Source: a virus. Taken from it: DNA of 36,762 bases. The position numbers were made by a program, and so were the translations under genes. This document shows positions 1-10,769 of this stretch, piece by piece. Every line of letters starts with the position of its first letter. Position 1 is the stretch's first letter. The DNA lies in the IMG/VR virus record IMGVR_UViG_3300044613_000826, positions 1 through 36,762 of that record; one strand, given 5' to 3'. The notes beneath the pieces were generated by a model. It did no database searches, was not told the origin of the DNA, and saw only the letters and a program-made list of their open reading frames with translations.

Positions 1-196
1 CAGATTCGTGTCTTGAGATGCAGAATGAATGGATACAGCTTTCTTTGATTTTACCGCCATCCATTGTTGCTTCGATTTCCAACTTGAATGGACAACTCGA
101 TTTTAATGATTTAAGCCTATTTTTAAGAGTTTTATTGTTTTTTGTAAATCCAATCTTCACCATCATACTGTTTCCTGCTCTTATTACATAGATCAT
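1..196 (-). CDS. GIY-YIG (Mug113/T5orf172-like) nuclease, partial
   Basis: The visible 65 residues start MIYVIRAG and continue with MVKIGFTKN, RLKSLKSSCPF and an EIEATMDGGKIKESCIHSF block; the C-terminus lies off the left edge. The order YVIRAG, VKIG, RLKxL, then an acidic/His block matches the short GIY-YIG domain of the Mug113/T5orf172 type, where VKIG plays the YIG part. Such domains cut DNA and often belong to homing or mobile genes. The gene points left, against the late genes on either side of the cut, and follows a structured region on the same strand. An internal ATG pair at 161-166 could also be the start. No Shine-Dalgarno is visible. Function is inferred from motif order only. Confidence 0.65.
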   Translation of the reverse strand, partial: MIYVIRAGNSMMVKIGFTKNNKTLKNRLKSLKSSCPFKLEIEATMDGGKIKESCIHSFCISRHES

Positions 197-231
197 ATTG
201 TTTCGATTTGGTTTTATTTATTAGACAGTCA

Positions 232-628
232 CCTCGCTTACGCTCGATCAAACTTCCCTCCGAGAGGAAAAAGACATACCGACCTCTTAGGGCTGTGCTT
301 ACAAACCCTATGATTCGTGGTCTACCATGTGGAACCCCTATCTCTAGAGACCCAATTCGGTTGTGCGCTCTTCCCCCCGCTTCGGATTAAAGCCTGTAGC
401 GGACGCTGGATGATAGGTCGGAATCAGAGCCAGCCGCGAGCCTAATGGTAGTGAAGTATTCTCATACCCCTTTGCCCGTCCTAATGGCTGTCTCGTTCCA
501 CTAGGAACTGACCTTTAAAAGAGCAAAGGCCAGTACGAAAGACGGGGGAATCTCGTACTAGCCTTGCGGCTAAACCTTTATGGCTTAGCGAGGAAGATGT
601 TGACTTAGACCCCCGTCTGTCGTCAACG
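232..628 (-). ncRNA. Candidate large structured RNA upstream of the GIY-YIG gene
   Basis: No convincing gene lies here, but the sequence folds on itself repeatedly. Perfect arms (plus coordinates) are: 232-238 with 587-593 (7 bp), 279-285 with 415-421 (7), 288-292 with 306-310 (5), 405-409 with 430-434 (5), 469-475 with 523-529 (7), 495-499 with 504-508 (5), 532-538 with 553-559 (7) and 599-604 with 622-627 (6). The 540-548 segment is also a perfect 9-bp complement of 610-618, linking two hairpin loops. On the minus strand TAGCC-GCAA-GGCTA gets a GNRA loop, and the 569-576/582-589 helix gains a G-U pair where the plus strand has an A-C mismatch; both favour minus-strand transcription. No group I or II intron, tmRNA or RNase P consensus was recognised. 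The class is unknown. Confidence 0.55.
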
Positions 629-630
629 CC

Positions 631-658
631 AAAATACATTATTTTACCGTTCCGTCAA
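631..658 (-). promoter_or_regulatory. Possible sigma70 promoter for the structured RNA
   Basis: Read on the minus strand, TTGACG (658-653) is followed after 16 nt by TATTTT (636-631). A start about 7 nt downstream would fall at the first arm (627-622) of the structured region. The -10 is only 4/6, so this is a weak but well-placed match. Confidence 0.35.
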
Positions 659-2020: not shown

Positions 2021-3013
2021 ATGAGTATCTCGAATACCTATCAACCAAATGCGCCCCAAGCCAAGCTCGGCACGGGTTCCGCTATCTCTAACCGCGAGGA
2101 TCTCTCTAACGAGCTGACCCTCCTTGCTCCCGAAGAAACCCCGCTCCTCAGCCTTTGCTCTAAGGGTAAGGCAAGTGGTACTTTCAGCGAGTGGACTGCC
2201 GATGTGCTTTCGGCTCCTTCGACTGCTGGTATCTCTGAAGGTACGGATGTTACCGCCTTTGATGACAAGTTCGCTAGCCGCGCTCGTCTTGGCAACTACA
2301 CCCAGATCTTCCGCCGCGACTACATCGTGTCGAACCTGCAACAAGCCGTTAGCTCCGTTGGCCCAGCAAACGTTGCACAGGCTGAGGCAAAGTCGATGCG
2401 TGAACTGAAGCGCGATGTCGAAGCAGCTATCTGCTCGGACAATGATCGTACCGTTGAAAACGGTGCTGGCACTCCATACGCCCTCCGTGGTCTTGGTGAC
2501 TGGCTCGACTCGGCTGGCCCTTCGGATGTTCCTGCCGCTTATCGCACGCCTTCGGCTTCGATCCTCGGTGCTGCTCCTACGGACACTACCTTCAACGATG
2601 TCATCGCGTCGATCTACACCGTCAATGGCGAGGCCAATAACCTCACCCTCATCGCTGGTGTTGCTCTCCGCAAGGTGATCTCGAACTTCCAACGCTCGTC
2701 TGGTCAAGCCACCAGCCCTGCTGAAGCGGTGTATCACATCAATCAAGACGCTTCGAGCAAGAAGATCACCCATGCAGTTACCCTGTATGAGTCCGACTTC
2801 GGTATCGTAAATGTCATCAATGGCAACCCTTCCTGTATGCCTGCCGCTACCCGTGGCTATGTGGTGAATCCGAAGTATCTCGGTTTCAACACCTTGATCC
2901 CAATGGGTTCGACTCGCCTTGAGAACCAAGGTGGTGGCGAGCGTGGTTTCGTGGACATGGTTGGTACGCTTGTTTGTAAGCACCCTGGCGCACACGGCAA
3001 GATCGCTTACTAA
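2021..3013 (+). CDS. Major capsid protein, SU10-like (HK97 fold)
   Basis: 330 residues. Features fit the SU10-type major capsid family (formerly DUF5309): an N-terminal stretch with LLAPEETPLLSL, a TQIFRRDYIVSNLQQ block, the MRELKRDVEAAI helix followed by a Gly-rich linker and RGLGDWLD, and a late YESDFGIVNVINGNP segment like the family's V-Y-S-D-F-G-x-V strand. The length is typical. It lies 19 bp after the scaffold gene and codon choice is regular, as for a highly expressed gene. The leader is A/T-rich with no Shine-Dalgarno. Large antisense reading frames across it are shadows. Confidence 0.88.
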   Translation: MSISNTYQPNAPQAKLGTGSAISNREDLSNELTLLAPEETPLLSLCSKGKASGTFSEWTADVLSAPSTAGISEGTDVTAFDDKFASRARLGNYTQIFRRDYIVSNLQQAVSSVGPANVAQAEAKSMRELKRDVEAAICSDNDRTVENGAGTPYALRGLGDWLDSAGPSDVPAAYRTPSASILGAAPTDTTFNDVIASIYTVNGEANNLTLIAGVALRKVISNFQRSSGQATSPAEAVYHINQDASSKKITHAVTLYESDFGIVNVINGNPSCMPAATRGYVVNPKYLGFNTLIPMGSTRLENQGGGERGFVDMVGTLVCKHPGAHGKIAY

Positions 3014-9213: not shown

Positions 9214-9512
9214 AAATCCCCCCATCGGTCAGCATTGGTGGGCAGGAGGTGGAAATCGTCATCGAAAAGGATTTAGCGGAATATGGTCTTTTTTGTCTTG
9301 ACGACATGAGGATTACCCTTCGTAGTGCCGACACAGACATTATGGAGTCCACATTACGCCATGAGATGATGCACGCTGCATTCAGCATTGCTGGTATCTC
9401 TCACTCGAAAACATTTGAGGACATGGAGGAGTGTGTAGTCCGTTGTCTTGAGAACATCTTCTTTCCTGCGTGGGAGAAGGTGATCGCCAAACCAAAACGA
9501 AAAACAAAATGA
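9210..9512 (+). CDS. Small HExxH metallopeptidase-like protein
   Basis: 100 residues from the ATG at 9210, which overlaps the previous stop (ATGA); an upstream in-frame ATG at 9195 lies in the lysin-end copy. STLRHEMMHAAF (residues 47-58) contains HEMMH, the HExxH zinc site of gluzincin-type peptidases, and later acidic residues (FEDMEECVVR) could give the third ligand. The N-terminal part is beta-like. The substrate is unknown. It was probably coupled to the endolysin before the HNH gene arrived, so a wall or lysis role is possible. Confidence 0.6.
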   Translation: MKIPPSVSIGGQEVEIVIEKDLAEYGLFCLDDMRITLRSADTDIMESTLRHEMMHAAFSIAGISHSKTFEDMEECVVRCLENIFFPAWEKVIAKPKRKTK

Positions 9513-10668: not shown

Positions 10669-10714
10669 AAAAAAATACCACCCCAGAGGCGCATTGTTAA
10701 GAGGCGGGGGTGGT
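10669..10714 (-). terminator. Rho-independent terminator, distal copy
   Basis: GGGGTGGT (10707-10714) pairs with ACCACCCC (10677-10684) in an 8-bp stem. On the minus strand it is followed by seven Ts (10675-10669). It ends the leftward early operon as the second of two tandem terminators. The 22-nt loop shares a conserved word with the other copy. Confidence 0.75.
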
Positions 10715-10723
10715 CTGCTGGTC

Positions 10724-10769
10724 AAAAAATAACCCCAGTTGGTGCGCATTGTCAAGAGGCGTCTGGGGT
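10724..10769 (-). terminator. Rho-independent terminator, proximal copy
   Basis: CTGGGGT (10763-10769) pairs with ACCCCAG (10732-10738), followed on the minus strand by six Ts (10729-10724). It lies 9 bp after the stop of the DnaC-like gene. The loop contains GCGCATTGTCAAGAGGCG, differing by one base from the loop of the distal copy. Confidence 0.75.

Follow-up and report, generated by a model that had tools for sequence, protein, structure and literature searches.

A pseudoknotted minus-strand RNA in an SU10-like phage, with a terminator-like 5' unit and exchangeable structured modules

The sequence analyzed was the IMG/VR virus record IMGVR_UViG_3300044613_000826, taken whole (36,762 bases, referred to here as the window). 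An SU10-type major capsid protein is encoded at 2021–3013, terminase and SU10-type portal genes lie at the right end, and RecT, exonuclease and DnaC-like genes are carried on the minus strand. About 960 nt separate a truncated portal gene from the scaffold gene, and within this gap lies the region, 232–628, in which an earlier note on this DNA had proposed a large pseudoknotted RNA read from the minus strand. All the helices that it described were found in place, as were the 9-bp match between loops and the hexamers resembling a promoter. It had also named a protein-coding signal across 232–628 as a check; all frames were inspected and none held a convincing gene. At 709–779, between the promoter-like site and the scaffold gene, are 3.5 tandem copies of an iteron-like 20-bp repeat (AAGACGCATGCTTAGCCCGA). 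The features of the element are given below in the 5' to 3' order of the minus strand, followed by the adjacent gene.

653–658, minus strand: –35-like hexamer TTGACG; TTGAC/TTGCG stands at the same place in relatives
631–636, minus strand: –10-like hexamer TATTTT; similar hexamers recur there in relatives
599–627, minus strand: hairpin H1; inner GAC/GUC part conserved, outer part less so
610–618, minus strand: 5' strand of the predicted kissing match, AGACGGGGG, in the H1 loop (own-loop complementarity test)
569–589, minus strand: hairpin H2, which differs among relatives; in the alignment as it stands, 66% of cells pair
526–565, minus strand: hairpin H3, a 13-bp stem resembling a terminator; 99.7% of cells paired, with changes on both sides in 6 pairs
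540–548, minus strand: 3' strand of the predicted kissing match, CCCCCGTCT, in the H3 loop (own-loop complementarity test)
517–527, minus strand: U-rich tract TTTGCTCTTTT 3' of H3; stronger in most relatives
222–516, minus strand: 3' structured module of type A (~290 nt), 3' end approximate; its alignment fold beats column shuffles (alifold z = −6.3)
479–506, minus strand: module A hairpin of 9 bp; 4 pairs changed on both sides
453–470, minus strand: module A hairpin; 100% paired, with a GNRA-type loop GCAA in one subgroup
445–451 (5' strand) with 322–328 (3' strand), minus strand: long-range helix; 100% paired, 3 pairs changed on both sides
405–434, minus strand: hairpin with the pseudoknot strand 415–421 in its loop; 100% paired, 3 pairs changed on both sides
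415–421 (5' strand) with 279–285 (3' strand), minus strand: pseudoknot; 99.5% paired, 2 pairs changed on both sides (in 12 and 9 sequences)
377–402, minus strand: module A hairpin, less well supported; 92.3% paired, no pair changed on both sides
333–352, minus strand: module A hairpin with a GNRA-like loop; 100% paired, 3 pairs changed on both sides
288–310, minus strand: module A hairpin; longer in relatives, where a GNRA-type loop often closes it
1–196, minus strand: GIY-YIG (T5orf172-type) gene, cut by the window edge; family assigned on the intact copy at locus L006

Relatives of the element were gathered from IMG/VR capsid relatives and by a core pattern scan, giving 27 distinct full-length elements of the window's type (type A). 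Covariation was scored on an alignment of 26 type A homologues with 13 manually defined helices. One of the contigs, IMGVR_UViG_3300043424_000052 (loci L013 and L020; 40.8 kb), carries two capsid genes (94% and 92% identity) near its ends and is possibly a concatemer, a redundancy or a chimeric assembly.

The minus strand from 640 to 215 had a predicted folding energy of −152.3 kcal/mol (z = −3.55), which none of 100 shuffles equaled; the plus-strand fold was unremarkable against shuffles (z = −1.20). Predicted pairs comprised 294 G-U cells and 11 A-C cells, and this large excess of G-U over A-C identifies the minus strand as the RNA strand. The 13 helices paired in 90.3% of cells across the 26 homologues, compared with 84.9% when shuffled and 34–48% when slid. 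Thirty-five pairs were changed on both sides against 21.7 in shuffles, and 0 of 500 shuffles reached 35 (a null that ignores kinship); at the level of cells, 157 were changed on both sides against 55. Covariation among homologues, a further check named in the earlier note, was found in 11 of the 13 helices tested, the pseudoknot included, under the same shuffle null ignoring kinship. The best-supported parts were H3, the hairpins at 479–506, 405–434 and 333–352, the long-range helix 445–451/322–328 and the pseudoknot 415–421/279–285, which the earlier note had picked out. H2 and the outer part of H1 were weakly supported, and in H1 and the 377–402 hairpin no pair was changed on both sides. That the element is a real structured RNA is in our judgment virtually certain, and this RNA is on the minus strand; the large pseudoknotted minus-strand RNA of the earlier note is borne out by homologue covariation and by the G-U to A-C count. 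A DNA-level element, such as a replication or packaging signal made of inverted repeats, might draw on the tandem repeats nearby, but the strand bias of G-U over A-C and the covariation of the long-range helix and pseudoknot speak against it, and we find it hardly credible.

No match was obtained for the whole window in Rfam 15 at the gathering threshold (GOLLD, ROOL, OLE, HEARO and group I/II introns included), and with E up to 5 the sole match in the region 1–1000 was to mir-3, attributable to chance and lying outside the element, which agrees with the statement of the earlier note that it recognized no RNA class. Two resemblances considered for module A were set aside: an RNase P-like topology had no Rfam support, and in a group I intron the order of the pseudoknot strands differs. 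Literature searches found no description of the element.

The architecture was not the one first proposed. The helix 232–238/587–593, which had been thought to close nearly the whole region, was paired in 55.2% of cells against 54.6% when shuffled and is not conserved. Of the single fold of about 400 nt, the large structured RNA stands, but it is not one closed fold; rather, it is a terminator-like 5' unit followed by an exchangeable 3' module. The 5' unit comprises the promoter-like site, H1, and H3 with its U-tract. The hexamers that had suggested a promoter of its own are at that site and recur in relatives, but alone they are near chance in the window stretch (3 found against 1.4 expected); a permissive promoter pattern was matched in 75 of 76 elements (raw count, run with no control). 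In 68 automatically parsed elements a GC-rich stem is followed by a U-tract, the 12-nt stretch at the end of the stem having 7.2 T on average. The parser could not resolve another 8 elements; in several of these the same arrangement was recognizable by eye, and units that have diverged strongly retain both stem and U-tract. In the window itself the U-tract is weak, and the H3 loop of about 12 nt is long for a terminator. In its sequence features H3 looks like an intrinsic terminator, and from these features we infer termination.

The 9-bp match between the H1 and H3 loops was register-shifted in the type A alignment and was examined register-free. Complementarity of at least 7 nt between an element's own loops was present in 65 of 68 elements (types A–D; mean 9.0 nt), against 6.8% for swapped loops, and the match of the earlier note is re-formed in these 65 with different sequences, about 25 in number. 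Two of the three exceptions (L065 and L014) were script misparses that are complementary by eye. The third, L099 (626–1079), has H1 and H3 loops from different alleles with two mismatches, and is possibly a natural recombinant or a chimeric contig. When a blind detector was built on a terminator with a complementary upstream loop, 14 of 1500 control windows fired; a stricter detector, applied to 31 relatives with no sequence match, recovered the diverged units L051 and L079, and a pattern scan seeded from these two gave more units. Within the H1 loop, the first three bases can pair inside H1 in 14 of 24 alleles (swapped mean 8.2; p ~0.006, ignoring phylogeny), and the inner H1 stem thereby gives a weakly supported hint of a switch. 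In a different phage (L187, ~1037–1067) the same terminator stem has a loop, TCTACCAC, of which 7 nt are complementary to GTGGTAG lying upstream of it; this may be chance or a distant unit.

Past H3 the sequence varies by phage, and module types A, B, C, D and F were distinguished together with two B-like forms (L079/L177/L178 and L181/L182). Type F occurs in L173, L179, L183 and L186, behind diverged kissing-terminator units with the loop GGTAGTAGC. The type A model matched the window only (E = 1.2e-55), with 0 matches at E ≤ 1 in the 44 loci that have other modules or none. Measured against column shuffles, the alignment folds of types B and C reached z = −4.5 and −6.1, respectively, the opposite strand of B being nearly as good (z = −4.0); those of D and F, whose sequences are few and similar, beat the shuffles weakly. 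Modules B, C, D, F and the B-like forms had no Rfam matches of their own. A single loop allele is found with several module types, for example CGAAGTAGGA with A, B and C, and the presence of an identical allele beside different modules indicates that modules recombine behind the 5' unit. In L060 and L074, module D includes a T-arm-like hairpin (GGTTCAATCCC) with a compensatory change; ARAGORN called neither a tRNA nor a tmRNA in module D.

These arrangements bear on two other readings of the element. One takes it as a single ornate RNA of ~400 nt, perhaps a homo-oligomer held by intermolecular kissing loops in the manner of ROOL and GOLLD, with the U-tract a mere linker. All modules with an intact 5' flank are indeed preceded by the 5' unit, always in one orientation, the U-tract of the window is weak, and kissing loops and pseudoknots are typical of ROOL and GOLLD assemblies (PMC12286853). 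We nevertheless consider it rather unlikely: in L073 and L076 the 5' unit stands alone, with ORFs instead of a module behind it, modules are freely exchanged behind one and the same loop allele, different modules share no sequence immediately 3' of the U-tract, the end-joining helix fails, and the GC-rich stem with its U-tract is kept in very diverged units. The other, in which the 5' unit is an independent sRNA with phage-specific loop recognition (cf. the antisense immunity RNAs c4 of P1/P7 and CI of P4) and the modules are unrelated neighbors, would account for some 25 loop alleles among close relatives and for the stand-alone units. It is the less probable of the two, as the complementary partner lies within the same RNA, where the flank was intact no module was found without the unit, and other matches to the loop sequence in the window (at most one mismatch) numbered 6 against 5.7 expected, a chance level at which a trans target within the window was rejected.

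Among 75 capsid relatives with enough flank, the unit was present in 46 (44 by sequence, 2 by architecture) and absent in 29. Type A elements sit just upstream of the scaffold gene wherever the contig of the relative includes that gene. Named phages and plasmids gave no match to the element beyond chance, and in the nearest named phage, C75C1, the 56 nt between the genes leave no room for the RNA. In bacterial genomes, the capsid search found no relatives, and a scan with the type A core pattern produced 8 matches that look like chance, the best with an nhmmer E of 0.02 over ~20 nt. A position between portal and scaffold/capsid genes, combined with loop-to-loop pairing, recalls a DNA-packaging RNA like the phi29 prohead RNA; however, the unit is missing from those 29 of the 75 close capsid relatives, the modules are unrelated to each other, and the window phage encodes both a terminase large subunit and a small-terminase-like protein, which makes a packaging role highly improbable.

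Genes following the element were also compared. Apart from the GIY-YIG gene, these include HNH-like (by motif; no Pfam hit), Sigma70_r4 and PAPS-reductase-like (by motif) genes; in L007, L015, L006 and L139 a cargo gene downstream of the element, in the orientation of the RNA, codes for a small sigma-70 region 4 protein (PF04545). The earlier note had drawn a parallel to RNA-plus-nuclease mobile units such as HEARO, and an element of this sort (HEARO/IscB-like or intron-like) would explain why GIY-YIG (T5orf172) or HNH-like genes follow some elements. Most elements, however, have no GIY-YIG or HNH-like ORF, and at L006 the same GIY-YIG gene follows module C rather than A, so the parallel is unsupported. 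With no Rfam match to intron, ribozyme or HEARO models and with insertion always at one place in the phage, a mobile unit is very unlikely. The GIY-YIG gene is exchangeable cargo and no part of the RNA.

Matches to the abiF motif (RF03085) were found in 18 of 40 records searched, 11 of them above the Rfam cut-off. The window has two tandem abiF-like motifs on the minus strand, at 10732–10768 (35.1 bits) and 10677–10713 (25.0 bits), both below the cut-off of 37; they lie 10 kb from the element, just past the end of the early operon, and each hairpin is followed by a U-run. Another lies at ~18668 in L002. In three loci abiF motifs stand, as hairpins of their own, 5' of the unit in the same orientation: two copies in L179 (~9275–9438), one in L181 (539–574, 29.5 bits) and one in L183 (3449–3485, 45.3 bits over the full 37 positions). 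The abiF RNA is an antitoxin that binds and silences AbiF (PMC12373285), and phage PhiTE mimics an RNA antitoxin against ToxIN (PMC3475682). No Abi_2 protein was detected in the window or in any of the 12 abiF-bearing relatives, most of whose records are fragments. The simplest reading of these orphan copies in phages is a decoy function against host AbiF.

The mechanism that we infer, comprising termination and read-through, kissing in cis, a working role for the module and counter-defence, is put forward tentatively. The cassette would be transcribed leftwards from the sigma-70-like promoter, and its first ~110 nt would fold into H1, H2 and the intrinsic-terminator hairpin H3. During transcription the H3 loop would kiss the H1 loop in cis, and this contact would set how often RNA polymerase stops at H3. 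Stopping would release a short RNA, and read-through into the ~290-nt module would give the ~400-nt RNA. The 3' module would then be the exchangeable working part of the cassette, acting against host systems as a decoy or inhibitor of RNA-based defence. Because orphan RNAs resembling the abiF antitoxin occur in this family, in some phages immediately next to the unit, counter-defence is the most attractive guess for the modules, whose action would most likely be anti-host. In sum, a kissing terminator may gate read-through into a swappable structured-RNA cassette, perhaps one of counter-defence. The more specific proposal, that SU10-like aquatic phages keep a kissing-terminator slot for RNAs each neutralizing a different RNA-based defence, alongside orphan AbiF antitoxin RNA decoys, is a conjecture that we hold to be improbable as it stands. 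The findings add to phages several families of structured RNA not described before, whose covariation warrants immediate experiments, and show unrelated RNA modules exchanged behind the unit as protein genes are in accessory loci. Should the modules counter host defences, phage RNA mimicry would extend beyond ToxIN and would offer concrete targets, AbiF first.

Several known systems may be compared with the element. Like ROOL and GOLLD, it is a large, highly structured phage ncRNA with a pseudoknot and predicted kissing loops; unlike them, it measures ~400 nt rather than 600–800 or more, has no profile match, is built as a terminator-like unit with swappable modules, and occurs in a window with no tRNA, whereas ROOL and GOLLD are often near tRNA genes. 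In GOLLD the 5' part varies and the 3' part is conserved (PMC12286853), and both families are only analogies to the element. With the abiF RNA (RF03085) it shares a structured, phage-borne RNA with a terminator-like hairpin, but abiF is a 37-nt hairpin and the window element itself has no RF03085 match. The phi29 prohead RNA is similar in its loop-to-loop complementarity covarying between phages and in its capsid-gene neighborhood; the element differs in being much larger, in its exchangeable 3' parts, in having no Rfam match and in being dispensable in close relatives. Transcription attenuators and processive antiterminator RNAs (HK022 put) have promoter-proximal hairpins and a terminator-like hairpin, as does the element; in contrast to these, its upstream loop is predicted to pair with the terminator loop, it has no leader peptide or known ligand motif, and a structured RNA rather than a gene lies downstream. 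To our knowledge, a terminator loop paired to an upstream loop in ~25 alleles, with unrelated modules swapped behind it, is an architecture known nowhere else. Large structured phage RNAs are a known kind, and the kissing-terminator unit with exchangeable, unrelated modules is new.
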